Positions 10,099 to 33,166 of a stretch of 64,000 bases of DNA are shown here, in pieces. Origin of the DNA: Sphingorhabdus sp. SMR4y. GTDB lineage: Bacteria > Pseudomonadota > Alphaproteobacteria > Sphingomonadales > Sphingomonadaceae. The first letter of the stretch is position 1. The number at the start of each line of letters is the position of its first letter. Under the pieces are notes generated by a model. That model had not been told where the DNA came from, made no database searches, and worked only from the letters and a program-made list of their open reading frames with translations. The translations under genes were made by a program, and so were the position numbers. The stretch lies in contig NZ_CP022336.1 in assembly GCF_002218195.1 (NCBI RefSeq), forward strand, positions 310,001 to 374,000, read 5' to 3'.

Positions 10099-10127
10099 TT
10101 TTAACAGAATTTTTCGGGAGACATATC

Positions 10128-14020: not shown

Positions 14021-14920
14021 ATGACAAAATTCAAACCAGTTTCAGCGATCAAGGCAGTGACCGCTATTGCGTCGATTGTTGCTTTGACAGCGCCGGTCGC
14101 TGCGAAAGACAAAAACGTCGAAGTGGTCAAATGCGATGCTTCCTATGGCACGATCGCGATTACCGATGGCGACACCCAGGGCTGGAACAAATTCGGCCTG
14201 TCCAGTCCGCGTGGCATGCTCGGTGCGATCGTTCAGGAATCGGGGTGCTTCACTCTTCACACGGGAGCTGACGGTCAGCCGACCGATTATCTGCTTTCCG
14301 CGATCGCGGGATCGCAGGAAGAAGTTGACCAGACGATGAATGTTGCCAAGACGGCACTGACCGAGGGACTGGTCCGGTCCGGTGCGGCCACCACGGTTCT
14401 CAGCAAGGTTCCGATGGGCGGCGCGCTGGTTGGCATGTTCGGTGGCCTCGGTGGCAAAAAGAAGACGATTACAGCGGGTCTCCGGTTAATGAATCCGGCC
14501 AATGGACAAACGCTGATCGCCGGCAGCGGACAAAGCAAGAAATCAACCATCAAGATTCTGGGCAGGAGCGACTGGGTCGCAGCCAGTCAGGGGCAGTTCG
14601 GTCAATATGGCAGTTCGAAAGATGGCAAGATGGTCACCAGCGCCTTCATTGAGGCTTTCAACGGCCTGGCTTCGCAGGCCGGAGCTCTCGCAACCGTGCA
14701 GCAAGCCGCGACCGCCGCTGCGCCTGCAGCCTCCAGCGCCAGCTACACGGTAGCCGTAGAGACAAAGATGCTGGCCAGTGCTTCAGCCAACGCTCCGGAA
14801 GTCCGGTCCCTGCGTGCGGATACCGAACTGCTGCCGACCGGCAACAAGACCGGTCTGTTTGTCGAAGTCACCGACAATTACGGCACGAAAGGATGGGTTT
14901 CAGTCGAAGACCTGCGCTAA
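14021..14920 (+). CDS. Exported SH3-domain protein with CsgG-like N-terminal region
   Basis: The ATG at 14021 is preferred because AAGGGG lies ten bases upstream; the ATG at 14012 is too close to that site. The 299-residue product has a signal peptide (VTAIASIVALTAPVAA). The middle region contains MTSAFIEAFNGLASQAGAL and regular alanine/glycine helices reminiscent of CsgG/HfaB-type secretion proteins, but without the lipobox. An Ala-rich linker leads to a C-terminal bacterial SH3 domain (about 235-299: VETKMLASASANAPEVRSL..NYGTKGWVSVEDL). SH3 domains of this type often bind peptidoglycan. It is convergent with the CHAT gene and has the clearest copy of the regulon motif upstream. Confidence 0.65.
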   Translation: MTKFKPVSAIKAVTAIASIVALTAPVAAKDKNVEVVKCDASYGTIAITDGDTQGWNKFGLSSPRGMLGAIVQESGCFTLHTGADGQPTDYLLSAIAGSQEEVDQTMNVAKTALTEGLVRSGAATTVLSKVPMGGALVGMFGGLGGKKKTITAGLRLMNPANGQTLIAGSGQSKKSTIKILGRSDWVAASQGQFGQYGSSKDGKMVTSAFIEAFNGLASQAGALATVQQAATAAAPAASSASYTVAVETKMLASASANAPEVRSLRADTELLPTGNKTGLFVEVTDNYGTKGWVSVEDLR

Positions 14921-14995: not shown

Positions 14996-17893
14996 CTAGT
15001 CTCCGATCAGGATGAACGGGGCCCACACGGCCGGATGCGATGCTCCGGGAACAGTCGGATCATTCATCAGATCGAGTTGTGCCTGTCGCAAGGCCTCGGC
15101 GCGGCTCTTTCCGCCGGCGGCATTGCTCACCGTGTCTACCGTCAGTCTGGCCGCGGCATCGTCGCGGACGCGCCAATGCGAGAGAAGCAGCGATCTGGCA
15201 CCGGCATAGGCGAATGATTTGGCCAGGCCGGAATAGGTCGGCGTTCCGACGCCGGAACCCGCCGCCGAATTGCAGGCTGACAGGATCACCCAGTCGGCGT
15301 CGAGCCGTAACTGGCCGATTTCCGAAGCTGTCAGCAGACCATCATCGGTCCCGTCGTCGGTCTGCGGAGGGGTGAATACCAGAGCGGGCTCTCCCAATCC
15401 CCGCAATTCTCCGTTGACCAGTCCGTGCGTCGCAAAGGCCAGAACAGAATAGGGCCGGAGATCCATGGTCTTGATCAGCGCTTCGGTCGCCGCATTGCCG
15501 GTGATGACCCTGGAATGATTTCGGCCTAGCGCATCCCCGATCTTTGTCAGTTCGAGCGTGGCGGACGGCAAGCTGGGAAGGTCGCGCACTTCGCTGATAT
15601 CGACATTTCCGCTTCGCAACAGACTGGCGACGACCACCGGCTCGCCCTTGGCACCGGAAAGGGCGGGCGCGCCAAATCCTGCAAAACGGATTTCCCGGTC
15701 CCGTGCGGCCGGGGGCTGCACAAGGTCAGCCACGCTCATGGGATTGCTGACAGCGAAACGCTTGATCAGCCAGGCGATATCCGCATCGGCGGTCCGCTCG
15801 GTTACCGGTTCCGTGATCAATAGCGAAGCGGGAAGCGCCGCCAGAATGCCGGAGCTGATCAGGTGGATTTCATGCTCGTCCCGCAAAAGCTTTTCCACCC
15901 CGGAAGGAACATAATAGCGATAAAGGGCATGTGCGCTTTCGACCGCGAAAGGCGAGGGCGGTCCGTCCATCTGCGAAACGCTGTTCCGGATATCCCGGAC
16001 CCATTGATTGAGTTGCCCCGGCCTGACCGTCGTTTTCTGCCACACATAGTCATTCTTTGTGACGGCTGCGACATAGACGCCATCCAGTGCGGGTGTGACC
16101 ATCAGGAGAGGCGCGGATTTTAGCGCGGACTGCAATGCGCCAAGGGCGACCGGCTCGGGTTTGGCCAGAGACCAATATTCGGGGAGCGCGGTTTCGATCC
16201 TCGCGGATAATTCGGCAATGGCTGCACTATTCTCCTCCCGTTCGCGAAGAAGGGCAGCTTGTTTCGGCTTGTCACCTTCGGTCGTCGCCTTGGTGAAGCT
16301 GGCATCAATTTTCTTGCCGTTCTGCACCAGATCCTGAAGCTGTCGGACCTCGTCCCCCAATCCGGCTTTCTCGGCCACGGACCGGGCCGTCAAACTGCCT
16401 GAGATGCTGCTCAGATCGGCGAACTGGGCGAGTTGCATGGCGTCGAAACTCTCCGCCATATTCTTTTCGCGCGCCATGATACCGGCAAATCTTGCAAACT
16501 GGTCGGTAAGGCCGGTGTCATCCGCAAAATATTCCTCAATTGATACCGCGCGATCCAGTATTTTGCGGCGGACAGCCCGATATGCGGCAATCGCTTCCGA
16601 TGACTTGTTGTCCGGATGCCCGAACGCGTTGGCCAACTCGGTACGCATCACGGCAAATTTGAATTTTTCTGCGACCGGGAATTTGGCAATCACATCCTCT
16701 TGTGTTGCGATCTCGGTCATGATCGACTGCGCTGCATCGTAATTTTCGTTGAGCAGATGGTTGTTGACCAGTTCCAGACGCAATTCGGCGACCGCTGGAT
16801 GATTGTCCGAAAGCGCGGAAAGGGTCGCCGCCAGCGCTTTTTCCAGATAGGTCTGGCCTTGCTCCAGCTGCCCCAGCCGGGTGCTGAGCAGCCCGGCCTT
16901 GGCAAGGCTATTGCCGGTATATCGGCTCTGACTGTTGCCGGGACTGCTCTCGAAAATGCGCGCTGCCTCGTCGAACATGGCCACCTGATCCAGACTGGGC
17001 TCTGTTTTCGCCAGACAGTCGGCCAGATTGGTCAGCGTTATAGCCGTATCGCGCTTGTCGCGTCCCAGAATTTCAGTGCGCAGGTCCAGCGCCCGACGCA
17101 GCAGCGGGATTGCCTCTCCGCAGCGACCTGCGCTGCTCAGGGCAGAGCCCAGATTATTCAATGCCCCGGCATAAACGGAATGGCGCTCACCAAGCCGATC
17201 CTCGGCATATTGGGTGGCCAGGCGGTTTTCCTTGAGCGACAGTTCGGTGTCGCCGGTGGCGTTGACCACTGCGGCAAGCGACATCCAGTAGGTCACGGCC
17301 AGCGTATTGTCGGCATCGGTGGGATTCTCGATCACCCGCGCGATATCGACCGCTTGTCGGATTTCAGTCACCGCAGATTGATAGTCGCCCAGCCGGTATT
17401 TGGTGCTACCGATATTGAACAGGGCTGCCGCGTAGCCGGAGCTTTCCATCCCCTCGGTTTCCCGCCGGATATCCAGAACTTTCTGCTGAATCGAAAGTGC
17501 TTCTTCGGCTTTTCCGGTCATGCTCAGAACGACACTGATATTGTTCAGTATCGAAATCATCTGTTTGTGGGTGTGCAGATTGTCCGCGTCGAGCAGAGCT
17601 TCCGCTGTTCGAAAATTGGCGAGGCTTTGCTCAAAGTCCTGAAGATAGAAATAGGCACCGCCGAGTGCGCCAAACGCTGCCGCTCGGGCAAGCGTGCCGA
17701 CCTCATCGCCGGATTCCGACGCCTCCAGCATCGCCTTGATTTCCTTGATCGCAACATTGGGTTGCCGTGAAACATCGCGATCGACCAGTGCGGTCATTCT
17801 GTCATTGAGGGTCACGTCATCGTTTGCTTGCGCGATACCGGACAATGAACCGGCGGACAGCAGTAAAGCCACTTTCCAATATCTGAATGCCAT
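14996..17893 (-). CDS. Exported TPR-CHAT domain protein (caspase-like peptidase fold)
   Basis: The 966-residue protein starts at the ATG at 17893. The upstream TTG is too close to the GGAAGAG site. A signal peptide (VALLLSAGSLSGIAQA) indicates export. Residues of about 40-430 carry many TPR-like repeats. The C-terminal part of about 340 residues is a CHAT domain with the catalytic-type His823 in FATHGLVNGE and Cys874 in VILSACNSAAG. CHAT proteins are separase/caspase-like peptidases, and cytoplasmic members act in defence and signalling. A secreted version beside a two-component system, SH3 protein and SLAM-like protein suggests envelope proteolysis or sensing. The substrate is unknown. Confidence 0.85.
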   Translation of the reverse strand: MAFRYWKVALLLSAGSLSGIAQANDDVTLNDRMTALVDRDVSRQPNVAIKEIKAMLEASESGDEVGTLARAAAFGALGGAYFYLQDFEQSLANFRTAEALLDADNLHTHKQMISILNNISVVLSMTGKAEEALSIQQKVLDIRRETEGMESSGYAAALFNIGSTKYRLGDYQSAVTEIRQAVDIARVIENPTDADNTLAVTYWMSLAAVVNATGDTELSLKENRLATQYAEDRLGERHSVYAGALNNLGSALSSAGRCGEAIPLLRRALDLRTEILGRDKRDTAITLTNLADCLAKTEPSLDQVAMFDEAARIFESSPGNSQSRYTGNSLAKAGLLSTRLGQLEQGQTYLEKALAATLSALSDNHPAVAELRLELVNNHLLNENYDAAQSIMTEIATQEDVIAKFPVAEKFKFAVMRTELANAFGHPDNKSSEAIAAYRAVRRKILDRAVSIEEYFADDTGLTDQFARFAGIMAREKNMAESFDAMQLAQFADLSSISGSLTARSVAEKAGLGDEVRQLQDLVQNGKKIDASFTKATTEGDKPKQAALLREREENSAAIAELSARIETALPEYWSLAKPEPVALGALQSALKSAPLLMVTPALDGVYVAAVTKNDYVWQKTTVRPGQLNQWVRDIRNSVSQMDGPPSPFAVESAHALYRYYVPSGVEKLLRDEHEIHLISSGILAALPASLLITEPVTERTADADIAWLIKRFAVSNPMSVADLVQPPAARDREIRFAGFGAPALSGAKGEPVVVASLLRSGNVDISEVRDLPSLPSATLELTKIGDALGRNHSRVITGNAATEALIKTMDLRPYSVLAFATHGLVNGELRGLGEPALVFTPPQTDDGTDDGLLTASEIGQLRLDADWVILSACNSAAGSGVGTPTYSGLAKSFAYAGARSLLLSHWRVRDDAAARLTVDTVSNAAGGKSRAEALRQAQLDLMNDPTVPGASHPAVWAPFILIGD

Positions 17894-18017
17894 TTCGTGC
17901 AATCTCTTCCAACAATGCTGATTATCGCCTGGCCATTGCTGGCAAAGTCGAAACCGGTGTGCGCCCAGTCAATTCTATGAAAGAAATTACATGTTTGCAA
18001 ACTGTTGATGGCGCTTT

Positions 18018-21399: not shown

Positions 21400-21678
21400 T
21401 CTCCACATCCCCGCTTCCACTTTTTTCTGATCCGTCGGACTTTAGCAGCGAGATCAAGAGAGTCAGCTAGGATTATAGGGAGGCCAGACGAAAGGACCGC
21501 GAGAAGAAGCAAAATGACCGGGATGCCGTGAACAGGCTCGAGGATCTGCTCGATCCGATTGCGTGGAATACCTCAGGGTGTTTTGGCTGGAGTCAAACAA
21601 GCTAAGTTTGCAGTTTGTGGGTAGGGGTTTTCCGTTATACAGGCAGCTCGAATGGTAATTTTGAGACGAGGACATCCT

Positions 21679-21951
21679 ATGGACATGAAGTCGAGCGTGC
21701 AGCACAGCAGTAATATTGTCTCCTGTGAAATCGACGCGAAAACGGTGATGCTTGATATTGAAAATGGGAAATATCATGGCTTTAACGAAGTCGGCTCCCG
21801 CATTTGGCAAATGATATCCGAGCCAATCGAAATCGGCAAAATATGTGATATTCTGATGACGGAATTTGAAACCTCACAGGAACAATGTGAAGTGGAAGTG
21901 TTGGGGTTTCTGCAAAAGCTGCACGAGACCAATCTCATCTCGGTAAGCTGA
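21679..21951 (+). CDS. PqqD-family leader-binding protein (lasso B1 / RRE)
   Basis: The 90-residue protein starts at the ATG at 21679 (MDMKSSVQHSS). It has the PqqD-like pattern VSCEIDAKTVMLDIENGKYHGFNEVGSRIWQMI followed by a helical tail, i.e. a stand-alone RiPP recognition element. In lasso peptide pathways this B1 protein grips the leader of the precursor and presents it to the protease and cyclase. It opens a run of eleven plus-strand genes, with the asparagine-synthetase-like cyclase 39 bases downstream. The expected leader motif (W-x2-P-x-L-x5-G-x2-T) is present in the precursor at 28315. The assignment rests on family pattern and context. Confidence 0.85.
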   Translation: MDMKSSVQHSSNIVSCEIDAKTVMLDIENGKYHGFNEVGSRIWQMISEPIEIGKICDILMTEFETSQEQCEVEVLGFLQKLHETNLISVS

Positions 21952-21990
21952 TAATATGGTGGTAAACGGCTTTCTCGGGATCGAAATCTT

Positions 21991-23868
21991 GTGAGCATCA
22001 TTGCCGGAAGCGTCGATTTTTCCAGCAATCCCGATGTCCGGAGCAATAAATTCTCCGATTGCTTCGCGAAATTCGAACACGCCTACCATGAACATTGGCA
22101 GGACAGGTTCGCCAGTCTGCGCTATTGGCACCAGAGCATTTCTCCGTCTTCAAAAGGCGAAGTGCAGCCTTTGCTTGACGATGAATTGGTGTTGGTCGGC
22201 GACCTTAGATTAGATAACCGGGCCGATCTCATCAAAAAGCTGAGGGGATTGAGTAGTTCCTCCACCGACAGTGAAATGGTTTTGGCCGCTTATAGAAAGT
22301 GGCAAGACCAATGTGTAAGCCATCTCGTCGGAGGCTTTGCGTTTGCCATCTGGGACAGGCGTCTCAAGACCCTGTTTTGCGCCCGGGATCAAATGGGACA
22401 AAAGCCTCTGTTTTACTGCGAAGCAAACGACGGCTACGATCGCTGTTTCATGTTTTGCACCTCTCCCGCGGGGATACTCAATCACAGCAGGACAAGCAGC
22501 GATATCGACCCTCAAGGCGTGTTCAATATCTTGATGGGACGGACCTGCAACGAAGAAACCAGCACTCTGTTCTCCAGCATTAAGCGGCTAGCTGCGGGAT
22601 TTTGCCTGCAGGTCAACCAGGCAGGAATGGAACTCAGGCGATACTGGGAGCCGGAACCGACCAGAAGTATCCGCTATGCTGATGATCGCGAATATGTCGA
22701 AGGATTTAACGAGAAACTGGAGCAAGCGGTTGAGGCGTGTATCAACACTGATTTGCCAGTGAGTTCGTTTCTCAGCGGTGGGCTGGATTCCAGTACGGTC
22801 GCCTGCATGGCCCATAAAAAATTGCGACATAATGACCGTCGTCTCATCTCTGCCACCTTTGTTCTGCCAGACAATGAAGATGGCGTTGATGAAAAGACAT
22901 ATGTCGATTCCATATTGGCGGAACATGATTTTGACCATTTCTACGTCACTCGCGAAAATATCGGATTTCGCGAATGCCTGCACAACAGCCAGGAGTTATA
23001 TGGGGGCTATCCTCATACCAGCCATGCCTATTTCGATAATCTCTTGCCGGAGTTGGCGGAACGGAATGTCGGCGTGCATCTCTGTGGTTATGGAGGTGAC
23101 CAAGTGGCCTCATATCACGGGATGTGGGTATTCGAGCAGTTGCTGTTGGAAGGGCGCTGGATAGCAATGCTGAATCTGCTGAAGTCTACCAGCAACGGCC
23201 GTTTAAGAAGTGGCGCGAAAACGATATTCAGGACGCTATTGAACATAGTCCAAGCGACTTTGCCCGATAGCCGCGACAGGGATTGGTATGACAAAAAGGT
23301 TGCACGCAGGATGATCCTGCCCGAACTCGCCAATCGGCCTGGTTACCGTGAAAATGTCGCAAAGCGTGCATCATTCGACGTGCATCCGTTTCCATGGAAA
23401 ATTACCGATGTGATGAAACGGTTCATTCAGTATGACCGCACTTCGGTGACCTTGGAGACCCTGAGCAACATCTTTCTGCCTTATGGCATCGAATATCGGA
23501 CCCCACTCACAGATATTCGCCTGATCGACTATTGCATGTCATTGCCTCCGGAACAATTTTCTATGGGCGGAAAGAGAAGTCTGATGCGCCGGTCAATTCA
23601 GGGGCTGGTACCTGAACAAATTCGTCTGGCTCACAACAAGCATCAGGGCTCGACGCCGAATTTGTTTCTCGGCCTGTGGCAGGAAAAAGATCAATTGCTG
23701 GAGGATCTGAATAATTGCACCCATATCAGTGATATCTCAAAATTATTGGATATTCCCAGAATAAAAAGACTTCTGGCAAAAAGTGAGGTTAATGAAAGAG
23801 ATAGGCCGAAATTATACAGGAACCTGGAGCTAGCCTTGTACCTATCCTGGTTTAAAAATCATTTCTGA
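21991..23868 (+). CDS. Asparagine-synthetase-like lasso cyclase
   Basis: The 625-residue protein has an N-terminal Ntn-type domain but begins (GTG) S-I-I-A-G. The glutaminase catalytic Cys2 of asparagine synthetase B is therefore absent, as in amidotransferases that use another amine. The synthetase domain has the PPi loop SGGLDSS near residue 260 and later GYGGDQ and PYGIEYRTPLTD. In lasso pathways this C protein adenylates the side-chain carboxylate of Asp/Glu and joins it to the core N-terminus. With the PqqD protein upstream and the lasso-like precursor downstream, the cyclase role is well supported. There is no other maturation enzyme of this class in the window. Confidence 0.85.
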   Translation: MSIIAGSVDFSSNPDVRSNKFSDCFAKFEHAYHEHWQDRFASLRYWHQSISPSSKGEVQPLLDDELVLVGDLRLDNRADLIKKLRGLSSSSTDSEMVLAAYRKWQDQCVSHLVGGFAFAIWDRRLKTLFCARDQMGQKPLFYCEANDGYDRCFMFCTSPAGILNHSRTSSDIDPQGVFNILMGRTCNEETSTLFSSIKRLAAGFCLQVNQAGMELRRYWEPEPTRSIRYADDREYVEGFNEKLEQAVEACINTDLPVSSFLSGGLDSSTVACMAHKKLRHNDRRLISATFVLPDNEDGVDEKTYVDSILAEHDFDHFYVTRENIGFRECLHNSQELYGGYPHTSHAYFDNLLPELAERNVGVHLCGYGGDQVASYHGMWVFEQLLLEGRWIAMLNLLKSTSNGRLRSGAKTIFRTLLNIVQATLPDSRDRDWYDKKVARRMILPELANRPGYRENVAKRASFDVHPFPWKITDVMKRFIQYDRTSVTLETLSNIFLPYGIEYRTPLTDIRLIDYCMSLPPEQFSMGGKRSLMRRSIQGLVPEQIRLAHNKHQGSTPNLFLGLWQEKDQLLEDLNNCTHISDISKLLDIPRIKRLLAKSEVNERDRPKLYRNLELALYLSWFKNHF

Positions 23869-23902
23869 AAATCATCTGTATAATCATGTAAAGAAACAGC
23901 AA

Positions 23903-24829
23903 ATGGTCAAGCTTCGGAACACTCATTCTTATCGGGCATTCGGATTGAACATTCGCTCGGACATTTGCCTGCCCGAACTGGAGCCAGATCTCGCTCCAAG
24001 CCAAATGGACGTGCACATTCGCTATGGCCCCGGCCTGGCAAATATCTCCTCGCATGACAGTGCCGATCAGAATTTCATCGTCCAGGACGACCAGGTGATA
24101 TTACGGGGAGATGGTTTCGATCTAGCTGTTGTCCGCGGTGAAAATTTGACAATTCACTGCGATAATCCGGCGCTGTATCAAGAGCTTATCCGTTTGCGTA
24201 TTCTTGGGGCTGGAATAGGATTGTTGCTGCAACAGCGGGGGCAGTTGGTGCTGCACGGTGCGACGATTGTCGGCAAGCATGGGGCCGCTGTGGTCATGGG
24301 CAACAGTGGGGATGGCAAATCCACGTTGACGATGCAATTGGCGCAGCGTGGTTATCGTCTGTTGGGTGATGACAAATGCGTCGCCAGAGTTGACGAGCAA
24401 GGCATATCTGCCGTGCCATGTTCGCCATTTATAAAAGTGAGCAAGAAACTTGTCGCGCAAATGGATATCGAGCGGAGCAAGATTCATAGGAATAGTGCCT
24501 TGGAGAACAAAGTATATGTCGATCTAAGGTCGGACTTTCAACTCGATGACGTGCCGATTGTAGCGGGATTTGTTCTCGGCAGGGCTGCGCGGACTTCGGT
24601 AAAAAAGCTTACGCAACGGCAAGCATTTGAGAGTTTTTTCGAGCACAATTACCGCAAGGCGAAATTTTTCAAGACCGGACTGCAAAAAACGCAGTTTCTG
24701 CACTGCCACAATATGGCAAGTTCGGTCCCCGTATATCAATATTCCAGATCCTTGACGAATGTGCATTTCCATCAACCGGAGCCCGAGTTTTTAGATGTGT
24801 TGGGAGGCATTATTGGAAATGGCAGATAA
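23903..24829 (+). CDS. HPr-kinase-like kinase 1 (peptide tailoring candidate)
   Basis: The 308-residue protein has LVLHGATIV followed by Walker A GNSGDGKST near residue 133 and the acidic strand YRLLGDDKCVA. This is the layout of HPr kinase/phosphorylase-like proteins found in RiPP clusters. In some Firmicutes lasso clusters (paeninodin type) such kinases phosphorylate the C-terminal Ser of the precursor. The local precursor ends in Ser. The gene overlaps the downstream oxygenase by 11 bases, so translation is coupled. A second, divergent homologue lies at 29491. The actual substrate is inferred. Confidence 0.75.
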   Translation: MVKLRNTHSYRAFGLNIRSDICLPELEPDLAPSQMDVHIRYGPGLANISSHDSADQNFIVQDDQVILRGDGFDLAVVRGENLTIHCDNPALYQELIRLRILGAGIGLLLQQRGQLVLHGATIVGKHGAAVVMGNSGDGKSTLTMQLAQRGYRLLGDDKCVARVDEQGISAVPCSPFIKVSKKLVAQMDIERSKIHRNSALENKVYVDLRSDFQLDDVPIVAGFVLGRAARTSVKKLTQRQAFESFFEHNYRKAKFFKTGLQKTQFLHCHNMASSVPVYQYSRSLTNVHFHQPEPEFLDVLGGIIGNGR

Positions 24830-25703
24830 GGATTTGCTCAAGTTCGAAACTGTCGTGGCCAATCCCGGATTGCTCTCACTGGCTGCCCGGCAGCTTGATA
24901 AGCGCGTTTCTGATAATCCATCTGATACCAATGCAATCTGGCAACTGGCCGAAACTTACCGTAAACTGGGCGAGCTTGAAAAAGCCGCTGAGCTGTACTC
25001 GACGCTATGCCAAGTAACGGGGCAGGGCCGGCTTGTTAGAGATCTTTTGGCTGTCACTGGAGGAAATCCGCAAGATTTTGTCGGTCAAGACGGATGTTAT
25101 CCAGTGCCATTTGTGATCAGAAACAACTATCTCGCCGATGATGAGCTTTCCATGCTTTGCGACTATGTGAGTGCCGAGGCATGGGAAAGTTGCCAACCCT
25201 CGAAAGTCGGCAAGGGCAAGCATGATGATACGCTCAGGCGCTCCTTTGATTTGGCGATGCCCGATTGGCTGAAGAAAAAAATGCGTCAGGAAATTGTCGG
25301 CCATTTACCGGATTTGGCCTGTGCCTTGAATATTGCAGGTGAAAAATTCGATCGGATTGATTTGTCTCTCCGAAGCTATGGAGACGGACATTTTTTTGGC
25401 ATTCATACGGACAAGAGCTCCAAAATTCAGCGCCTTCTGAGTTTGACCTATTTCTTTTTTATCGAGCCGAAAAGTTTCACCGGCGGAGATTTGCTGATCT
25501 TCGATACCGATGTCGGTCAGTCCGAACACCGAGCATTTTCGGAAAGTTTCACGCGGCTGCAAGCCAGGCAAAACAGCCTGGTAGTCTTCCCAAGCGCTTC
25601 TTATCATGCCGTCTCAACGGTCAATGCTGAGACAGGAAGCACGGCTCACTATCGCTACGCTGTAAACGGTCATGTCTGGGAGCAGAACTCGGATGAGCAA
25701 TAA
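24819..25703 (+). CDS. TPR plus 2-oxoglutarate/Fe(II) oxygenase
   Basis: The 294-residue protein starts at the ATG at 24819 inside the end of the kinase gene, with GGGAGG upstream. Residues 15-70 contain a TPR-like unit (DTNAIWQLAETYRKLGELEK). The C-terminal part is a prolyl-4-hydroxylase-like jelly roll with His196-x-Asp198 (GIHTDK), His263 (SYHAV) and Arg279 as candidate iron and 2-oxoglutarate ligands, plus the GGDLLIFD strand. It would hydroxylate a residue of the peptide, with Asp, Asn or Tyr as candidates. It overlaps the sulfotransferase gene by 11 bases. Confidence 0.78.
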   Translation: MADKDLLKFETVVANPGLLSLAARQLDKRVSDNPSDTNAIWQLAETYRKLGELEKAAELYSTLCQVTGQGRLVRDLLAVTGGNPQDFVGQDGCYPVPFVIRNNYLADDELSMLCDYVSAEAWESCQPSKVGKGKHDDTLRRSFDLAMPDWLKKKMRQEIVGHLPDLACALNIAGEKFDRIDLSLRSYGDGHFFGIHTDKSSKIQRLLSLTYFFFIEPKSFTGGDLLIFDTDVGQSEHRAFSESFTRLQARQNSLVVFPSASYHAVSTVNAETGSTAHYRYAVNGHVWEQNSDEQ

Positions 25704-26514
25704 CCCTTCTGACGAGCGACCGTTTTTTGGGGCTCTTTACGATTTGCAGGAGCTTGTAAAAACGCACCTGTTTCTGATCTGCCCGAACAATAGCGGCTCA
25801 ACTTATTTGAAGGGTGTCATGGCGAACTCCATGCACACATGGAACCTCCGGAAAGAGGGGCAGCATATGGTGGGCTTTCAGGGCGTATCCACAAATGCGA
25901 TCGGTGCGGAACTGTTGTGGGCTACTGAGAAATGGTTGAAATATTTTACAGATGAAACGGCGTTTAACTGGCCGGAGACGCGGAAAGCCTGGTATTTTGC
26001 AGCCACGGCGCGAGATCCCGCAGCGTCAGTATTTTTTACCAAGTCTCCTCCAGCTATCGTCTGGGTGGAGCAACTCAAGCAGTGTTTCCGCAACAGCCGA
26101 TTTATCTTCATGGTGCGTAACCCCTATGCGGTGGTGGAGGGAATCTCGAGAAGGAAGCGGGGACATTATCCGAGAGAGCAGATCCTCAATCTGGCTTCAG
26201 AACATATTATGAAATGTTTTGAGCTGCAGATAAAAAATATCGAGGACAATCCGGAAGGCGAGTTCTTCACCTATGAGTTTTTATGCGCCGAACCGGAGCA
26301 GGTCAAAAATAGGCTGAACCGGTTGGTTCCGGATTTGGCAGATTTGAACTTCGATTCCGAAATACCGGTCAAGGGAAGTTACTGCGAACCGCTCCGCAAC
26401 ATGAATGAGCAGCAGATAAACAAGCTTGGCGGGACCGACTTGGCGATCATAAACCGTGTTTTTGATATGCACCCGGAAGTTTTGGAATATTTCGAATATC
26501 AGAGGGTGAGCTAA
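25693..26514 (+). CDS. Sulfotransferase 1 of the lasso-like cluster
   Basis: The 273-residue protein starts at the ATG at 25693, overlapping the oxygenase stop. The N-terminal P-loop-like PAPS site reads CPNNSGSTYLK and the 3'-phosphate site FIFMVRNPYAVVEGI, as in cytosolic sulfotransferases. The 5' loop is atypical (usually PRSGT). Candidate acceptors on the core are Tyr16, Thr7, Thr8, Ser19 or a new hydroxyl made by the hydroxylases. The second sulfotransferase at 28487 has a more canonical loop, so the two probably have different acceptors. Confidence 0.75.
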   Translation: MSNNPSDERPFFGALYDLQELVKTHLFLICPNNSGSTYLKGVMANSMHTWNLRKEGQHMVGFQGVSTNAIGAELLWATEKWLKYFTDETAFNWPETRKAWYFAATARDPAASVFFTKSPPAIVWVEQLKQCFRNSRFIFMVRNPYAVVEGISRRKRGHYPREQILNLASEHIMKCFELQIKNIEDNPEGEFFTYEFLCAEPEQVKNRLNRLVPDLADLNFDSEIPVKGSYCEPLRNMNEQQINKLGGTDLAIINRVFDMHPEVLEYFEYQRVS

Positions 26515-26539
26515 TGGACGATCGATTGGGAATAGTGAC

Positions 26540-27106
26540 ATGACCTATTTTCCGGGTCAAACAAGAGAGCTCGCTAAAATTGACCATGATGCCATCGAGC
26601 TTTTGGTGAACGAACTGTCGAAGCAGGCCGGCCTGTGGGAAAAATGGGATGCACTGAAGCCGAACCGTTTCGGTGTTTTCAATGGATGCGTGCAGCATGT
26701 CGTCTTCAAATATCCGGTAGACCTGAGTGACCACCGGCTATCGATGACATTTCCAATCTGGCACGATTGGCAACCTCTTATTCAGCCGCTGATCGATCAA
26801 GCCGTATGTCCATATGGTTATGAACAGGGCAGTGTCGCTCGTATAATGTTGGCGAAATTACGCTCCTGTGGATCGATCCCCCTGCACATCGATAGCTCGC
26901 AATCTGCAGAAATCCCACACAAGGTGCACATTCCACTACAAACAGCTCGGGGTGTTGTGATGAATTTTGCCGGGAAGGACAGCTCCCATTTGGCGGTTGG
27001 CAGGGCTTATGAAGTGAATAATCGTATCGAGCATGGCGCGACCAATCCAACCGGTCATGATCGTGTTCACCTGATATTCGACTATTTCTCGCAAGCTCCA
27101 AATTAA
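26540..27106 (+). CDS. Aspartyl/asparaginyl beta-hydroxylase-like protein 1 (short)
   Basis: The 188-residue protein has a C-terminal hydroxylase fold: His116-x-Asp118 (LHIDSS), VHIPLQT, His165 (RIEHGATN) and Arg175 (HDRVHLIFDYF). This is the iron and 2-oxoglutarate ligand pattern of the Asp/Asn beta-hydroxylase family. In other clusters such enzymes hydroxylate Asp or Asn of peptides. The core offers Asn4, Asp9, Asp10, Asp14 and Asn15. It is 25 bases after the sulfotransferase and 17 before another family member. The function is inferred from motif and place. Confidence 0.72.
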   Translation: MTYFPGQTRELAKIDHDAIELLVNELSKQAGLWEKWDALKPNRFGVFNGCVQHVVFKYPVDLSDHRLSMTFPIWHDWQPLIQPLIDQAVCPYGYEQGSVARIMLAKLRSCGSIPLHIDSSQSAEIPHKVHIPLQTARGVVMNFAGKDSSHLAVGRAYEVNNRIEHGATNPTGHDRVHLIFDYFSQAPN

Positions 27107-27123
27107 CATAGGCGGTTGACGGC

Positions 27124-28065
27124 ATGCTTCCTGTATTTACCCAGCCTTTTGTCAAACTGCCACTCCGGGTGGACGTTAGCCGGTTGCAGTCTGAAGTGGC
27201 TGCGCTGTTGGAATTGGATTGGCTGATACATCCTTCAGGATTCCCCGGAAACCTGACTCTGCCGCTGATTGCCGTGAACGGGCAGTTCAACCATGATTTA
27301 TCCATTGCCGGCCAAATGCTGCCGACTCCTGCCTTGCTATCATGTCCCTATATCAGGCAAATCCTGGCTTATCTCGAGGTGCCCCTATCCCGTACCCGGC
27401 TGATGATGCTGCATTCGGGCGCTGAAGTGTCCAGGCACTATGATGCGGGCTATCATTGGTATCGTCGACTGCGGATACATATCCCCATCTTCACACATCC
27501 CGACGTGATATTCGGATGCGCGGAGCAAGAGCGCCATCTGGGTCAGGGAGAACTATGGTGTTTTGATCATAAAAACTGGCACTGGGTTCAAAATCACTCC
27601 CAATATACCCGAATTCATTTGGTGATAGATACCAAAGCCTCGCCGGATTTCTTCGCGTCTCTGTCAAAGCGGGATGGTCAGGAAACGGAGATCCCGTTCG
27701 GTGGTCAGGTTGCCAAGTCGATGTCCCTGGAGCCCTATGTTTTTGAAGTTCTCGAACCAGAGGAGCTATCACGGCTCATTGTTATCATGGTGACTCAACT
27801 GGAAGAACAAAACCAGCTTGAGTCCGTGCGTTTGCTGGAGGCGCTTGCAAGAAAATGGGAGCATGCTTTCGTCGAATATCAGCATAATGGAGCGGGTGAA
27901 TCGGCCTACAGACAAATCATCGAAGAGTTGGTGAAAAAAATCGATAGATCATTGCTGGGCGAGAAAGAAGATCGCGCGTTTAATACAATCGCCACGATGC
28001 TTGACAAGAGCAATGGTACGCCAGTTTTTCAGAGACTGAATGACATGAAACTCAATTTCAATTAG
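27124..28065 (+). CDS. Aspartyl/asparaginyl beta-hydroxylase-like protein 2
   Basis: The 313-residue protein shows the clearest Asp/Asn beta-hydroxylase signature in the cluster. His105-x-Asp107 lies in SRHYDAGYHWYRRLRIHIPI, and His153 and Arg163 lie in NWHWVQNHSQYTRIHLVID. A C-terminal helical tail of about 110 residues follows and may serve substrate binding or dimer contact. With the short homologue upstream it may form a pair acting on the same peptide. It is followed by a 249-base gap before the precursor gene, where a separate promoter could lie. Confidence 0.78.
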   Translation: MLPVFTQPFVKLPLRVDVSRLQSEVAALLELDWLIHPSGFPGNLTLPLIAVNGQFNHDLSIAGQMLPTPALLSCPYIRQILAYLEVPLSRTRLMMLHSGAEVSRHYDAGYHWYRRLRIHIPIFTHPDVIFGCAEQERHLGQGELWCFDHKNWHWVQNHSQYTRIHLVIDTKASPDFFASLSKRDGQETEIPFGGQVAKSMSLEPYVFEVLEPEELSRLIVIMVTQLEEQNQLESVRLLEALARKWEHAFVEYQHNGAGESAYRQIIEELVKKIDRSLLGEKEDRAFNTIATMLDKSNGTPVFQRLNDMKLNFN

Positions 28066-28314
28066 ATAGAAAGGGCCCCGTCGCCGAATGGACGCCGTGC
28101 AATTTTCGTGCGTTGGTGACATTCTCCTGATGAGTTCTCATGCTATTTAGCCAGCGGCGTCTTGTCCTCTGGGGGCAGGATATTGAAAATTGTTGCGCTT
28201 GATGTTTCCGCAGTTGCTAGTAACAAGGGTATGCAATCGAATATTCAAAAACGCGTGCAGATGATGAAATACAATGGGTATGCAAGGTGCGCTGACATGG
28301 AAGGTAACAGCAAG

Positions 28315-28473
28315 ATGAATGGCGAAGTTGAAAAAAAACAGAACGACCAAGGCAAGAAGAAAACTTGGGGGACGCCTGAACTTACCAGCTATGACTATGG
28401 GACTTTGACACAGGGTGGCGCGAACCTCCGGACAACGGATGATGTCGCAGGAGATAATTACCGGGCCAGTTAA
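28315..28473 (+). CDS. Candidate lasso-type RiPP precursor peptide
   Basis: The peptide has 52 residues from the ATG at 28315; an ATG at 28297 would add six. The Lys-rich leader contains KKKTWGTPELTSYDYGTLT, matching the lasso leader pattern (aromatic-x2-P-x-L ... G ... T) with Trp at -16, Pro at -13, Leu at -11 and Thr at -2. Cleavage after Gln33 gives core GGANLRTTDDVAGDNYRAS, with Gly1 and an Asp at position 9, so a nine-residue macrolactam ring is possible. The core ends in Ser, the site used by HPr-kinase-like lasso kinases elsewhere. It lies between the hydroxylases and sulfotransferase 2, unusually late in the gene order. No product is proven. Confidence 0.75.
   Translation: MNGEVEKKQNDQGKKKTWGTPELTSYDYGTLTQGGANLRTTDDVAGDNYRAS
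28414..28470 (+). other. Predicted core peptide (19 residues)
   Basis: The core reads GGANLRTTDDVAGDNYRAS. The predicted ring is Gly1 N-terminus to the Asp9 side chain, with tail DVAGDNYRAS. Potential tailoring sites are Asn4, Asp10, Asp14 and Asn15 (hydroxylation), Tyr16 (sulfation) and Ser19 (phosphorylation or glycosylation). These positions are inference from the Thr(-2) rule and the enzymes present. Confidence 0.6.
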
Positions 28474-28486
28474 TCAGTACCGCTGA

Positions 28487-29353
28487 ATGGAGAATATTGT
28501 CTGGATTGCCTCTTTTCCGAGGTCCGGAAACACTTGGTTGCGTTGCTTCCTTGCCGGTCTTTTGCAGGAGAGTGAGGAACTGGATCTGGATAGGCTTCCC
28601 ACAGTCCATTGTGCCAACAGGGCGCGCGTAGAGCAAAGCCTGTGTTTCTCCACGGGGGATTTGACCTCCTCGGAGATCAACATTCTCAGGCCTGGTGTCT
28701 ATCGCCATTGGGCCGAAGCGTGTGACTCATCGCTTCCGCTTTTCGTGAAAACCCATGATTGTTATGTGAATAACAATCTCGGTTCGCCGATCTTCCCCGC
28801 GGATGCTTCGCGTGCGGCAATTTACCTGATCCGAAACCCGCTGGATGTTTGCGTGTCCTATGCAAATTTCTGGGGCGGGCACGATTATGAGACGGCAGCA
28901 GACTATATCTGCGATCGTCAGCATTCGCACCCGCTGGATCATAGCAATATGTTCGGGCAATTATTTCAGCATATATCGGACTGGAGTACCCACGTTAAGA
29001 GCTGGCGCGATGATTGCGACATACCGACAAAAATCGTCAGATATGAAGATATGAAAATGGCACCGGCCAGTACCTTTCTTGACATTGTGCGTTTTCTGCA
29101 GCTTCCATTCGGAGAGCAGGATGTCGAGACTTCATTGGAAAAGTGCGATTTCGCAAAATTGCAAAATACTGAGTCTGTATCGGGATTTGGAGAGCGTCCC
29201 TATGAAGGTGACCGATTTTTCCGGCAGGGCAGGGTCGATGGCTGGCGCAATTCACTTCAGGCACAGACTGTTGAGCAGTTGGTCAATTGCCATTTTGAAG
29301 AAATGGCGAGATATAGGTATTTGCAAGAAGATGGAAGCATCATTGCGGACTGA
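28487..29353 (+). CDS. Sulfotransferase 2 of the lasso-like cluster
   Basis: The 288-residue protein has a near-canonical sulfotransferase 5'-PSB loop at the N-terminus (IASFPRSGNTWLR) and the 3'-PB motif AIYLIRNPLDVCVSYANF. The C-terminal KxxxF..FGERPYEGDRFFRQGRVDGWRN is also typical of PAPS-dependent enzymes. It begins 13 bases after the precursor stop, so it is likely co-expressed with it. The best core acceptors are Tyr16 and the Ser/Thr residues. The enzyme class is firm; the acceptor is inferred. Confidence 0.85.
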   Translation: MENIVWIASFPRSGNTWLRCFLAGLLQESEELDLDRLPTVHCANRARVEQSLCFSTGDLTSSEINILRPGVYRHWAEACDSSLPLFVKTHDCYVNNNLGSPIFPADASRAAIYLIRNPLDVCVSYANFWGGHDYETAADYICDRQHSHPLDHSNMFGQLFQHISDWSTHVKSWRDDCDIPTKIVRYEDMKMAPASTFLDIVRFLQLPFGEQDVETSLEKCDFAKLQNTESVSGFGERPYEGDRFFRQGRVDGWRNSLQAQTVEQLVNCHFEEMARYRYLQEDGSIIAD

Positions 29354-29490
29354 AACTGGCGAGGATGCCAAAGCATTGAGCTTTGCCCCATCCCATCGGG
29401 GCAGCTCTTCTTTCTTCGCCTCATTGGCAACTGGATGGACGATAGTTTCTGATTTCCTTCGGTGTCACTGTCGCGATATCGAAAGCCAGC

Positions 29491-30444
29491 ATGGAAAATC
29501 ATAGCTATCTCATCTGCGGATTAACTGTTTCTTTTCCGTGGCCGCAGGCGACATTGATCGCGTCCGCTGCGAAGACGGATGTTATGGTAGAGCTGGGGCG
29601 GGCCACACCTCCTCCAAAAGATCGGGTCAAGTTCAATGGCCCTTATTGCCAGGCCGCTCCCGGGCACGTTTTTTTCGAGCTCGACGATATTGGCCGTTTT
29701 TCCATTCGTGACGGCAACAATATCACGGTTGAAATATCGGGGGACGAAGACGTTGAGGCGCTGAATGCGTTTCTTCTAGGTTCCTGTTTTGGTGTGTTGC
29801 TGATCCAGAGAAATCAGCTGGTTTTGCATGCTGCGGTGCTTGAGAAAAATGGTCGCCAAGTCGGGTTTGCCGGGGGACCGAGCAGTGGAAAGTCCACTCT
29901 ATCGGGCATGTTGCTGAATTCGGGAGCGCGGATTCTGACCGACAATATTGCGGCGATAAAAGTCGAAGCGAACACCGCCGCCACGGTTTTTCCATCCTTT
30001 CCCTCCTTGCATCTATGGCGCCCAGCCATGGAAAAATTGGGGCTTGATCACCGCAACCCCAGAAAATTGCGACCTGAACTGGACAAATATGTGCTGTCCT
30101 TTGAGGAGAAATTCATTCCCGAACCAAGGCCTCTTCATACTCTTTGCATTCTCGCTCCCTGGAACAAAAGCGGGATAAGTTGCGAGCGTATCGAAGGGAT
30201 CGAGCGCATCACGCACCTCAGTCATGCCAGCTTTCGGTTGCGAATAACGCGGGGGATGGAGATGGATGAGCAGCATTTCGGGCACATCAGCGCGCTTTCC
30301 GGTTGTGTTGAACTCATCAAACTTTCTTTTCCCCACGACTGGGCCTTGAACAAAAGTCTGGTTGCACTCGTTGATGAAATGTTTTTGAGCCCCGATAAAA
30401 GATCCAGGTTACAGATCGCCAATGTAGATCCAGTCTCTGGATAG
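29491..30444 (+). CDS. HPr-kinase-like kinase 2
   Basis: The 317-residue protein is a diverged homologue of kinase 1. LVLHAAVLEKNG leads to Walker A GGPSSGKST near residue 128 and an acidic strand ARILTDNIAAIKV. The N-terminal beta domain (SYLICGLTVSFPWP) matches the equivalent part of kinase 1 (AFGLNIRSDICLPEL). Two such kinases in one cluster could phosphorylate different residues, or one could act as a scaffold. The 137 bases upstream contain a short frame that overlaps its start but no recognisable gene. Confidence 0.75.
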   Translation: MENHSYLICGLTVSFPWPQATLIASAAKTDVMVELGRATPPPKDRVKFNGPYCQAAPGHVFFELDDIGRFSIRDGNNITVEISGDEDVEALNAFLLGSCFGVLLIQRNQLVLHAAVLEKNGRQVGFAGGPSSGKSTLSGMLLNSGARILTDNIAAIKVEANTAATVFPSFPSLHLWRPAMEKLGLDHRNPRKLRPELDKYVLSFEEKFIPEPRPLHTLCILAPWNKSGISCERIEGIERITHLSHASFRLRITRGMEMDEQHFGHISALSGCVELIKLSFPHDWALNKSLVALVDEMFLSPDKRSRLQIANVDPVSG

Positions 30445-30509
30445 AAAAGCTGACCGACGGAAGGCTTGGTACCTGAATTTCTTTTAAAAGATGAAAAGGC
30501 AATCTGCAT

Positions 30510-31412
30510 ATGAATTACCGAGCAGACGGAAAATATTGTTTGGCAACGGTAACGACCTCGTCATATCTGATTGGCACCGCAGTATTAGTGCATTCTTTTT
30601 TGGAAAAGAATAACTGGTTTGATGGGGACATCGTCATCATAACCGAAACCAAAAATCTTTCCCCGTCTGAAATCGATATATTGCGCGGTTTTGATCGCGT
30701 GATGATCGTCGATATTGGTGAGGAGTTGCGCGAAAACATAAGAGCGCTCGAGGAAATAAATCCTTCTTTTCTGGGCAAGTCGGCAAGGTTCTTTTCGCTG
30801 GAAGTGTTCAACCTAGAGCGGTACGAGAAAGTGCTGTTCTGCGACAGTGACCTGTTGTTTCTGGACTCCATCAAGCATTTATTTTCTGACAATCAGCCAC
30901 TGCTTTGCTGTGGTGACGGGCCTTACTATCAAGGCCTTAATCGCAACAAATATTCGTTCAAGCCATGTGCACCCAAAGCCCCCGAACAGGAGCTTGCCAA
31001 CACTTTCAATGCGGGATTGATGCTTATTGATCAGTCGCTCATCACCCGATCAAATTACCAGTCCTTGGTAGACATGACAACTGCGCCGCACTGGACAGAT
31101 TCCAGTATAACCCACACCGACCAGAGGATATTCAACCTGTTTTTTGCCGGGCAGCAAAAGCTGGTTTCTCCTGTGTATAATTATTTGCTGGCGCATCAGA
31201 ATTCGATCGACGCGGCCCATCCCGATATCATCGACGATATAAAGGTTTTCCATTTCAATGGCGCCGCTAAACCTTGGCAGTTAATGCGCAGCATGAGCGC
31301 CATTGATGATAATGTGCTACAGTTTCAGGCTGCAATTCGATGGTATCAGCAATTCGAAAGGGCTCTGTCGCACAGGCATCTGGCCATGTTGAATGGCAAA
31401 TCCATTCGCTAG
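30510..31412 (+). CDS. GT8-like (glycogenin-type) glycosyltransferase
   Basis: The 300-residue protein has a GT-A fold pattern: CLATVTTSSYLIGTAVLVHSF at the start, the metal-binding DxD in LFCDSDLLFLD, FNAGLMLID, and the late KVFHFNG..KPW. All are hallmarks of family 8 glycosyltransferases that use UDP-sugars. As the last gene of the cluster it may glycosylate the peptide, for example on Ser19, a phosphorylated Ser or a hydroxylated side chain. Without a known sugar donor pathway nearby, the product is unclear. The rearranged region begins directly downstream. Confidence 0.8.
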   Translation: MNYRADGKYCLATVTTSSYLIGTAVLVHSFLEKNNWFDGDIVIITETKNLSPSEIDILRGFDRVMIVDIGEELRENIRALEEINPSFLGKSARFFSLEVFNLERYEKVLFCDSDLLFLDSIKHLFSDNQPLLCCGDGPYYQGLNRNKYSFKPCAPKAPEQELANTFNAGLMLIDQSLITRSNYQSLVDMTTAPHWTDSSITHTDQRIFNLFFAGQQKLVSPVYNYLLAHQNSIDAAHPDIIDDIKVFHFNGAAKPWQLMRSMSAIDDNVLQFQAAIRWYQQFERALSHRHLAMLNGKSIR

Positions 31413-31814: not shown

Positions 31815-32795
31815 TTAAGCGGCAAGCTTGCGGTGTAGCAAGCGCCGATGTTCGATGGTTTGTTTTTTGATCCTTTCTCGTTTTTTGATGATGGCGAGTG
31901 CTCTGCCGAAGTAGGCATCGGCAGGCGTAACGTTGCCCAGGCTTTCGTGATAGCGCTGGTGATTATAATGTTCGACGAACGCCTCGATCTGCGTTTCCAA
32001 GTCCCCTGGCAGGAAGTAGTTTTCCAGCAGGATGCGGTTCTTCAAAGTCTGGTGCCAGCGTTCGATCTTGCCCTGTGTTTGCGGATGGAAGGGGGCGCCG
32101 CGTACATGGCTCATCTTCTGTGCTTCGATATATTCTACCAGTTCACCCGCAATGTAACTCGGGCCATTGTCAGAGAGCAGCCGTGGCTTGTGCATAACTG
32201 CTGCCTGGTCGCAGCCTGAAGCTTCCAGAGCCATGTCCAGCGTGTCGGTGACGTCCTCGGCCCGCATGGTGCTGCAAAGCTTCCAGGCGATGATGTAGCG
32301 CGAGTAATCGTCCAGCACCGTCGATAGATACATCCACCCCCAGCCAATGATCTTGAAGTAGGTAAAATCTGTCTGCCACATCTCGTTGGGCCGCACGGTC
32401 GGTGTGTGGAATCGATCAGCAGCTTTGATCACGACATAGGCGGGGCTGGTGATCAGGTCGTGGGCCTTCAGAAGCCTGTAAACCGTGGCTTCTGACACGA
32501 AGTAGCGCTGTTCATCGGTGAACGTCACCGCCAGTTCGCGTGGACTGAGCTCCGAACGTTCCAGCGCCAGATCGATGATCTGGTCATGCACTTCGGCAGG
32601 GATCCGGTTCCACACCCGGCTTGGAGCCGATGGCCGGTCAGCCAGCGCTTCAGGCCCCCCTTCCAGATACCGATCATACCAGCGGTAAAAGGTTCGGTGC
32701 GGGATCCCCAACTTATCCAGCGTCTTGCGCGCTGACAGATGTGATTGCTCGACGATCCTGATGATCTCAAGCTTCTCCGATGCCGGATATCTCAT
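31815..32795 (-). CDS. IS3-family transposase OrfB (DDE)
   Basis: The 326-residue protein starts at an ATG that overlaps the OrfA stop (ATGA at 32792-32795). An N-terminal HTH (SEKLEIIRIVEQSHLSARKTLDKLGIPHRTFYRWYDRY) is followed by the rve integrase core: MWQTDFTYFKI (first Asp), STVLDDYSRYIIAW, LLSDNGPSY (second Asp) and QGKIERWHQTLKNR (Glu). Codon coupling replaces the usual frameshift. It appears intact. Confidence 0.9.
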   Translation of the reverse strand: MRYPASEKLEIIRIVEQSHLSARKTLDKLGIPHRTFYRWYDRYLEGGPEALADRPSAPSRVWNRIPAEVHDQIIDLALERSELSPRELAVTFTDEQRYFVSEATVYRLLKAHDLITSPAYVVIKAADRFHTPTVRPNEMWQTDFTYFKIIGWGWMYLSTVLDDYSRYIIAWKLCSTMRAEDVTDTLDMALEASGCDQAAVMHKPRLLSDNGPSYIAGELVEYIEAQKMSHVRGAPFHPQTQGKIERWHQTLKNRILLENYFLPGDLETQIEAFVEHYNHQRYHESLGNVTPADAYFGRALAIIKKRERIKKQTIEHRRLLHRKLAA

Positions 32796-33166
32796 GCGTC
32801 GTCGTCCCCATCCGCGATCATGCTTTTTTTGAGCAGACGGTTCTCGAGGGTCAGGTCGGCCACGCATTCCTTCAGATCACGCGACTCCCGCCGCAGGTCT
32901 TTCACTTCATCGCTGGTTGCAGCACGGGCCGTGTCACCGGCCAGCCGACGTTTGCCGGCTTCCATGAACTCCTTCGACCAAGTGTAATACAGGCTCTGCG
33001 CTATGCCCTCCTTGCGGCACAGCTCGGCAATGCTGTCATCACCGCGCAGGCCGTCGATCACGATCCGTATCTTGTCTTCTGCTGAGAAATGCCGGCGGGT
33101 CGCACGGCGGATATCTTTAACCACCCGCTCTGCGGGCTTTTTTGCGGTGGAGTGTTTTGGTTTCAT
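32792..33166 (-). CDS. IS3-family transposase OrfA
   Basis: The 124-residue protein starts at the ATG at 33166 with AAGGAA upstream; a GTG at 33184 is possible. It has the HTH-8 type domain (RRHFSAEDKIRIVIDGLRGDDSIAELCRKEGIAQSLYYTWSKEF) and a C-terminal leucine-zipper-like coiled coil (DLRRESRDLKECVADLTLENRLLKK). It pairs with OrfB. Confidence 0.9.
   Translation of the reverse strand: MKPKHSTAKKPAERVVKDIRRATRRHFSAEDKIRIVIDGLRGDDSIAELCRKEGIAQSLYYTWSKEFMEAGKRRLAGDTARAATSDEVKDLRRESRDLKECVADLTLENRLLKKSMIADGDDDA

Follow-up and report, generated by a model that had tools for sequence, protein, structure and literature searches.

A stretch of 64,000 nucleotides from Sphingorhabdus sp. SMR4y (contig NZ_CP022336.1, positions 310,001 to 374,000; hereafter the window), part of a single-contig genome of 3.48 Mb, contains a real, conserved, and heavily tailored lasso-type gene cluster at window positions 21,679-31,412. 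The cluster encodes a leader-binding RiPP recognition element (RRE), a lasso-type cyclase, two HprK-like proteins, three 2-oxoglutarate (2OG)-type hydroxylases, two sulfotransferases, a precursor peptide, and a GT8 glycosyltransferase. The same eleven genes occur in the same order in Alteromonas sp. a30 (locus L044) and in a metagenome-assembled genome (MAG) of Methylophaga (locus L045), and the core peptide is under purifying selection, so the arrangement is more than chance. With a probability of roughly 0.7, we regard it as an RRE-dependent lasso cluster of a tyrosine-bearing, multiply anionic type, in which the tailoring enzymes would act as proposed below and a B2 leader peptidase encoded elsewhere in the genome would act in trans. 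Lasso clusters are known as a kind, and this eleven-gene tailoring set is a variant of that kind.

Organization and Conservation of the Cluster

All eleven frames are intact and lie on the + strand, with start-stop overlaps between the genes for HprK1 and the 2OG enzyme (24,795 before 24,829) and between those for the 2OG enzyme and ST3 (25,672 before 25,703). An earlier note on this DNA described eleven one-strand genes with overlaps, which is borne out, the expected domains scoring above the Pfam cut-off in all products except the HprK-like proteins and the precursor. The features are as follows:

21,679-21,951, +, RRE, a B1-type PqqD-like leader binder (PqqD 64 bits; NF033536 81.7 bits)
21,991-23,868, +, lasso-type cyclase, asparagine-synthetase-like (NF033535 324 bits; Asn_synthase 111 bits; GATase_7 83 bits)
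23,903-24,829, +, HprK1, HprK-like kinase with intact H-K-D-D (HprK_rel_A 41 bits, below cut-off)
24,795-25,703, +, 2OG-Fe(II) oxygenase with a TPR-like N-terminal part (PF13640, 2OG-FeII_Oxy_3, 47 bits)
25,672-26,514, +, ST3, Sulfotransfer_3 family (PF13469 34 bits; structural model with a mean pLDDT confidence of 91.5, compared by Foldseek)
26,540-27,106, +, AspH1, Asp/Asn beta-hydroxylase-like (PF05118, Asp_Arg_Hydrox, 26 bits, cut-off 22.6)
27,124-28,065, +, AspH2, Asp/Asn beta-hydroxylase-like (PF05118 55 bits)
28,315-28,473, +, precursor, likely 52 amino acids, leader ..KKTWGTPELTSYDYGTLTQ, predicted core GGANLRTTDDVAGDNYRAS (conserved in L044 and L045; codon comparison)
28,487-29,353, +, ST1, Sulfotransfer_1 family (PF00685 97 bits; nearest solved relatives Teg14/Teg12)
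29,491-30,444, +, HprK2, with H-K-D-N instead of H-K-D-D (HprK_rel_A 47 bits, below cut-off)
30,510-31,412, +, GT8 glycosyltransferase (PF01501 88 bits; nearest solved relative glycogenin-1)

The open reading frame (ORF) of the RRE opens at 21,652, and relatives better match a start at 21,679. The cyclase has no N-terminal Cys and carries an SGGLDSS motif. The matches of the two HprK-like proteins to kinase models stay under the threshold (HprK_rel_A cut-off, 200 bits), and the precursor has no family match in Pfam or NCBIfam.

Relatives were gathered by scanning an ST3 alignment of four sequences (A1) over genome contigs, which gave 113 pattern matches, 55 relatives, and 48 loci; with loci from other searches, 141 were annotated with our own profiles, and such loci may mix neighboring clusters. 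Among these 141, a cyclase together with ST1, ST3, GT8, HprK, AspH, and a 2OG enzyme is found only in the window, L044, and L045. Protein identities to the genes of L044 and L045 are 47-67% by tblastn, the cyclase being 60% identical to both copies. Upstream, both loci also encode an ABC transporter, a nucleotidyltransferase, and the leader peptidase B2. A conserved precursor stands there among the same enzymes, and its lack would, according to the earlier note, have refuted the reading. Because these two distantly related marine gammaproteobacteria share the cluster and encode nearly the same peptide, it can be taken as real and testable.

The Precursor and Its Conserved Core

The annotated precursor ORF (28,162-28,473) is probably over-long, as its relatives point to the ATG at 28,315 as the likely start. 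The product fits the lasso pattern, reading W-G-T-P-E-L ... T-Q|GGANLRTTD; the rule applied, taken in part from passages of PMC10368454, calls for an aromatic-xx-P-x-hydrophobic leader, a Thr near position -2, Gly1, and Asp or Glu at positions 7-9. The predicted core is GGANLRTTDDVAGDNYRAS in both the window and Methylophaga and GGTNLRTTDDVVGDNYRAS in Alteromonas. Over the 19-residue core, the window and Methylophaga sequences differ by 14 synonymous and 0 non-synonymous codons (five codons are identical), and the leaders share 17 of 38 aligned columns; against Alteromonas, the 19 codons show 13 synonymous and 2 non-synonymous changes. The core is thus under purifying selection. In all three genomes, the precursor ends in ..NYRAS with a terminal Ser.

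In the window precursor, the leader Trp is followed 14 residues later by a Thr; with this Thr at position -2, the core comprises 19 residues and Asp9 is the ring acid. Known lasso rings span 7-9 residues. Several relatives (e.g., L018, L019, L021, L052, and L072) place the acid at position 10 by the same Thr(-2) rule, counted by eye, which weighs against this assignment; in them either cleavage occurs one residue later or the ring extends beyond 7-9. For this reason, the core start is uncertain by one residue.

The Lasso-Type Core Machinery

The earlier note's claim of a lasso-type core pair is supported. The RRE exceeds the NCBIfam cut-off for the lasso PqqD-like protein (NF033536, 81.7 against 80 bits), and the best NCBIfam profile for the cyclase is the lasso cyclase model at 324 bits, followed by AsnB at 177 and the XrtA amidotransferase at 156. 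The cyclase score lies below the model's own cut-off of 525, a point against the assignment. Since the AsnB and XrtA/PEP-CTERM amidotransferase models also match, the protein could in principle be an asparagine-synthetase-like amidotransferase of an exopolysaccharide or another RiPP (ribosomally synthesized and post-translationally modified peptide) pathway. This is highly improbable given the lead of the lasso model by ~147 bits over AsnB and ~168 bits over XrtA, a lasso-type RRE above its cut-off, a precursor with W-x-x-P-x-L and T-x-G, and the B2 gene that adjoins the same genes in L044 and L045. The second refuting condition of the earlier note, a cyclase that groups with asparagine synthetases or exopolysaccharide enzymes, was thus judged by profile scores. 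A single-protein search with the cyclase returned no match among viral contigs and none among plasmids at E 1e-60.

The Tail Tyrosine and the GT8/ST3 Pair

A tyrosine in the peptide tail goes together with GT8/ST3. A single leader pattern, applied to ORFs near cluster genes in the cyclase- or RRE-bearing members of the 141 loci, gave 77 distinct precursor-like ORFs, of which five are doubtful and are contained in the tyrosine counts. A Tyr falls within the last eight residues in 40 of 41 precursors of GT8-bearing loci against 6 of 36 of the others (Fisher 2.5e-14). As the loci are related, they were also grouped by cyclase identity, and by majority rule the association is retained at 40% (6/6 vs 3/19 groups, p 5e-4), at 50% (9/9 vs 3/25, p 4e-6), and at 60% (14/14 vs 4/26, p 1e-7), with two mixed groups at each level. 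ST1 was considered as the cause of the tail Tyr and set aside, there being no link among loci lacking GT8 and ST3 (3/17 vs 3/19).

Ten loci fetched by GT8 yielded six further clear precursors (the first ORF of L181, and L184, L186, L187, L188, and L190), all with a tail Tyr. As for the rest, L189 repeats the L072 precursor, L181 has a second precursor-like ORF without Tyr, and none was found in L182, L183, or L185. Nine of the ten also show ST3, the remaining one (L183) having GT8 and no other lasso gene. GT8 and ST3 are confounded because most GT8 loci were fetched by ST3, and, the two being nearly always together, the tail Tyr is not assignable to one of them; this limits the argument, as does the fact that related copies reduce the number of independent events among the gene fusions. 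GT8-ST3 fusions in a single frame number nine ORFs (L054, L058, L061, L062 twice, L065, L071, L074, and L088), near-copies such as L058/L061 and, among the HprK-ST1 fusions described below, L059/L060 making the independent events fewer than the ORFs. In the window cluster, ST3 and GT8 are not adjacent.

Glycogenin-1 glucosylates its own Tyr. Searched against the PDB, GT8 gave seven matches at E <= 0.001, all of them glycogenin-1, the best at E 2e-4. The ST3 model is nearest in fold to the tyrosylprotein sulfotransferases (TPSTs) TPST1/2, and the first 11 PDB rows in Foldseek are all TPSTs (E 5e-8 to 2e-6). Two points detract from this likeness, namely that the TM-scores are only ~0.5-0.58 and that, by sequence, the ST3 profile finds its best solved match in the CurM sulfotransferase (E 4e-8), TPSTs scoring no better than 6e-4. 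The predicted product is a lasso peptide that carries a sugar and a sulfate on or close to the tail tyrosine and a phosphate on its C-terminal serine.

The same lasso pathway could also operate with the Tyr as the sulfation site of a TPST-like ST3 and with GT8 acting on another residue, such as a hydroxylated Asp/Asn or a Thr. The fold of the ST3 model speaks for this division of labor, and so does the core, which reads GDNY, as acidic residues near Tyr favor sulfation by TPSTs according to passages of PMC9774471. The GT8-ST3 fusions, which suggest that both enzymes act on one site, argue the other way, and L018, with GT8 and no nearby ST3, keeps its Tyr, but an ST3 lies elsewhere on that contig (L076). 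On balance, we consider this arrangement somewhat unlikely and prefer joint action of GT8 and ST3 at the tail tyrosine.

HprK-Like Kinases, ST1, and the Hydroxylases

Lasso HprK kinases are known to act on the C-terminal Ser (PMC9266682 and PMC8498205, in the passages retrieved), and the His-Lys-Asp-Asp motif is given as essential in lasso kinases (PMC9266682, likewise). Among 83 HprK domains, 68 have HKDD, 6 have HKED, and 3 have HKDN, the last being confined to HprK2 of the window, L044, and L045. This Asp-to-Asn change in the catalytic motif of HprK2 weighs against the proposed scheme. Departures from HKDD/HKED were seen in 7 of 43 HprKs adjacent or fused to ST1 and in 2 of 40 others, numbers too few to decide, so that a degeneration specific to ST1 neighbors is only a lead. 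Separately, ST1-adjacent HprKs with the broken motifs RKDH, RKDG, and SKDG were observed in L118 and L152 (precursors ..YYTPPS) and in L024, in clusters lacking GT8 and ST3.

Single-frame fusions also join HprK to ST1 in two ORFs (L059 and L060) and HprK to a 2OG enzyme in L056 and L091 and partly in L050. Together with the HprK1/2OG overlap and the neighboring ST1 and HprK2 genes in the window, they would explain the two HprK genes as one per module. The nearest solved relatives of ST1 are Teg14 and Teg12, which are glycopeptide sulfotransferases. The earlier note had proposed tailoring with phosphate, sulfate, hydroxyl groups, and sugar; the enzyme classes are consistent with all four, and one of the two kinases has a changed catalytic residue. 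Which residue would receive which group is predicted from the sequence.

The Missing Leader Peptidase and the Origin of the Cluster

Several absences tell against a self-sufficient cluster. It contains no B2, nucleotidyltransferase, or lasso-type ABC transporter, and the window holds no B2 or nucleotidyltransferase remnant, the matches being at chance level only; the ABC transporter query found just one other ABC gene in the window, at ~3.1-3.6 kb. With no B2 of its own, a lack that the earlier note does not mention, the cluster depends on another part of the genome for release of the N-terminus of the core. PF13471, scanned over the whole genome, gives one B2, at 1,720,818, 1.4 Mb from the cluster. 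The locus around it (L017) has HprK, ST1, a cyclase, an RRE, and B2, and no convincing precursor was recognized there. A further locus of this genome at ~1.764 Mb (L181) has GT8, AspH, HprK, an RRE, ST3, and a precursor-like ORF ending in ..FNASYGVS, with no cyclase and no B2, and another at ~3.197 Mb (L099) has a nucleotidyltransferase and an ABC transporter. Lasso functions thus seem to be scattered across this genome, which makes it plausible that B2 works in trans; another genome (G259) offers a parallel, with two clusters and one B2. The parts of the L181 satellite locus lie at 9312-13496 and 14380-14535, and it has two precursor-like ORFs.

The guanine-plus-cytosine (GC) content of the cluster is 0.492 against 0.558 in its flanks, and the nine other genomes of the genus that were listed have neither a B2 nor a GT8 at E 1e-30. 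An rve (integrase-core) transposase lies directly downstream (window 31,815-32,867, -). From the lower GC content, the transposase, and the lack of B2 or GT8 in the other genomes of the genus, the cluster was probably acquired as a block. A phage-type integrase is present at window 42,885-44,084, and upstream a TPR-CHAT protein is encoded at 14,996-17,902 (-), which is not tied to the present finding.

The same features would fit a stranded import lacking B2, whose output would stop at a tailored linear precursor if there is any output: genes for B2, the nucleotidyltransferase, and the ABC transporter are locally absent, the GC content is lower with a transposase next door, and B2 occurs in none of the nine other genus genomes listed. 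All eleven frames are nevertheless intact and the core amino acids identical to those of Methylophaga, and the genome has its B2 at 1.72 Mb, with the satellite L181, which has no cyclase or B2, suggesting parts spread over several places. A stranded import is accordingly judged decidedly unlikely, and completion of the lasso peptide by a B2 acting in trans is retained as the likelier course.

Distribution and Comparison with Known Systems

The tailoring set is not confined to the window. Among the 48 ST3 loci, 41 show a cyclase (in the available flank), 46 GT8, 36 HprK, 25 ST1, and 20 AspH, and 17 have all of these. A different picture is given by 80 B2-centered loci chosen from among the matches listed (60 same-family and 20 wider), which within locus stretches of limited length show HprK in 32, ST1 in 13, ST3 and GT8 in 1 each, and AspH and 2OG in 0. 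The single locus with ST3 and GT8 (L103) ends early, and a second stretch taken from the same place (L190) shows AspH. The earlier note knew of no cluster combining such tailoring with two sulfotransferases, and this part of it has to be given up: ST1, ST3, HprK, AspH, and GT8 accompany a cyclase in 17 of the 48 ST3 loci and in other relatives, and a table in PMC10040529, as far as the retrieved passages go, gives a two-sulfotransferase set in Pontixanthobacter. Under co-occurrence with halotolerance, that table names B2, a nucleotidyltransferase, two sulfotransferases, an aspartyl beta-hydroxylase, PqqD, an asparagine synthase, and a glycosyltransferase, and the passages do not treat the set as a pathway.

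Some uncultured Gammaproteobacteria/Pseudomonadales carry many copies. Chromosome-level MAGs (L048-L091) OY282353.1, OY282455.1, OY282378.1, OY282519.1, and OY282433.1 have 16, 14, 8, 11, and 5 ST3 matches, respectively, a few of them partial; in the fetched loci these mostly lie beside lasso-type cyclases, GT8, or HprK, a large per-genome expansion of clusters. Within such cluster arrays, L084 (1714-3246) and L079 show cyclase fragments and a piece in which ST1 and cyclase share a frame, a pattern that resembles decay or recombination.

A close parallel is the Pontixanthobacter type (gene list in PMC10040529; L072, L073, and L082 by name, with L019, L021, and L022 from genus g38), which shares ST3, AspH1, HprK, ST1, RRE, cyclase, and GT8, with a precursor recognized in five of six loci. 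It differs in having B2 and a nucleotidyltransferase (and an ABC transporter in 5/6), one HprK, no 2OG enzyme, and a different core. The HprK-tailored lasso peptides of the paeninodin/Syan type (PadeK, ThcoK, and SyanK) resemble the window cluster in an HprK-like kinase, a precursor ending in Ser, and a separate B1. In the passages retrieved from PMC8498205 and PMC4289311, that type has split B1/B2 proteins and, in some clusters, a sulfotransferase gene, the former being a 2021 review that cites a 2016 paper for Firmicutes and the latter a 2014 paper on anaerobes. Unlike it, the window cluster has two HprK-like proteins, two sulfotransferases, three hydroxylases, and GT8, and no B2. Lasso-tail hydroxylation has a precedent in canucin, whose C-terminal Asp is modified by the 2OG hydroxylase CanE, and a sugar on the lasso tail in pseudomycoidin (PsmK/PsmN, phosphate-hexose), although there the sugar is placed on phospho-Ser by PsmN and not by a GT8; the passages retrieved on these two mention no sulfotransferase. 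In the tyrosine-sulfated RiPP system RaxX/RaxST, a bacterial tyrosylprotein sulfotransferase modifies a Tyr of a peptide, but the corresponding passages of PMC6637879 describe no macrolactam cyclase, and the system uses a double-glycine leader and type I secretion.

Proposed Pathway and Implications

The data consist of the gene content, its conservation, selection on the core, the link between the tail Tyr and GT8/ST3, the gene fusions, and the altered HprK2 motif; the individual reactions, the residues modified, and the recruitment of B2 in trans are inferred. In the pathway so proposed, the RRE would bind the W-x-x-P-x-L leader and present the linear precursor to the tailoring enzymes. HprK1 would phosphorylate the C-terminal Ser19, and AspH1, AspH2, and the 2OG enzyme would hydroxylate Asp/Asn or another side chain. 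GT8 would glycosylate Tyr16 by glycogenin-like chemistry, ST3 would sulfate Tyr16 or its sugar, and ST1 would add a second sulfate with the changed HprK2 as its partner. B2 from the 1.72 Mb locus may then remove the leader in trans, after which the cyclase would join Gly1 to Asp9 (Asp8/Asp9 if the core starts one residue later), forming the lasso.

A more specific version holds that GT8 and ST3 build a sulfated O-glycan on the tail Tyr, that the HKDN HprK is non-phosphorylating and serves ST1, that sulfation partly replaces tail phosphorylation, and that the scaffold has stayed near-unchanged across classes, with B2 used in trans here. As a whole, this combination is unlikely.

Among the matches listed from the open-licence literature (titles, beginnings of abstracts, and passages; for one search, 15 of 5,147), none reports a sulfated lasso peptide or such a cluster; if the proposal is true, the product would be a sulfated lasso peptide, bearing a modification not seen in those matches. 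The fusions would be ready-made bifunctional enzymes, the changed-motif HprK would be a testable case of a kinase fold turned partner protein, and the Alteromonas sp. a30 version, with its B2 and transporter, is a practical place to seek the product. That the core has hardly changed between two classes of proteobacteria suggests that its target or receptor is fixed.

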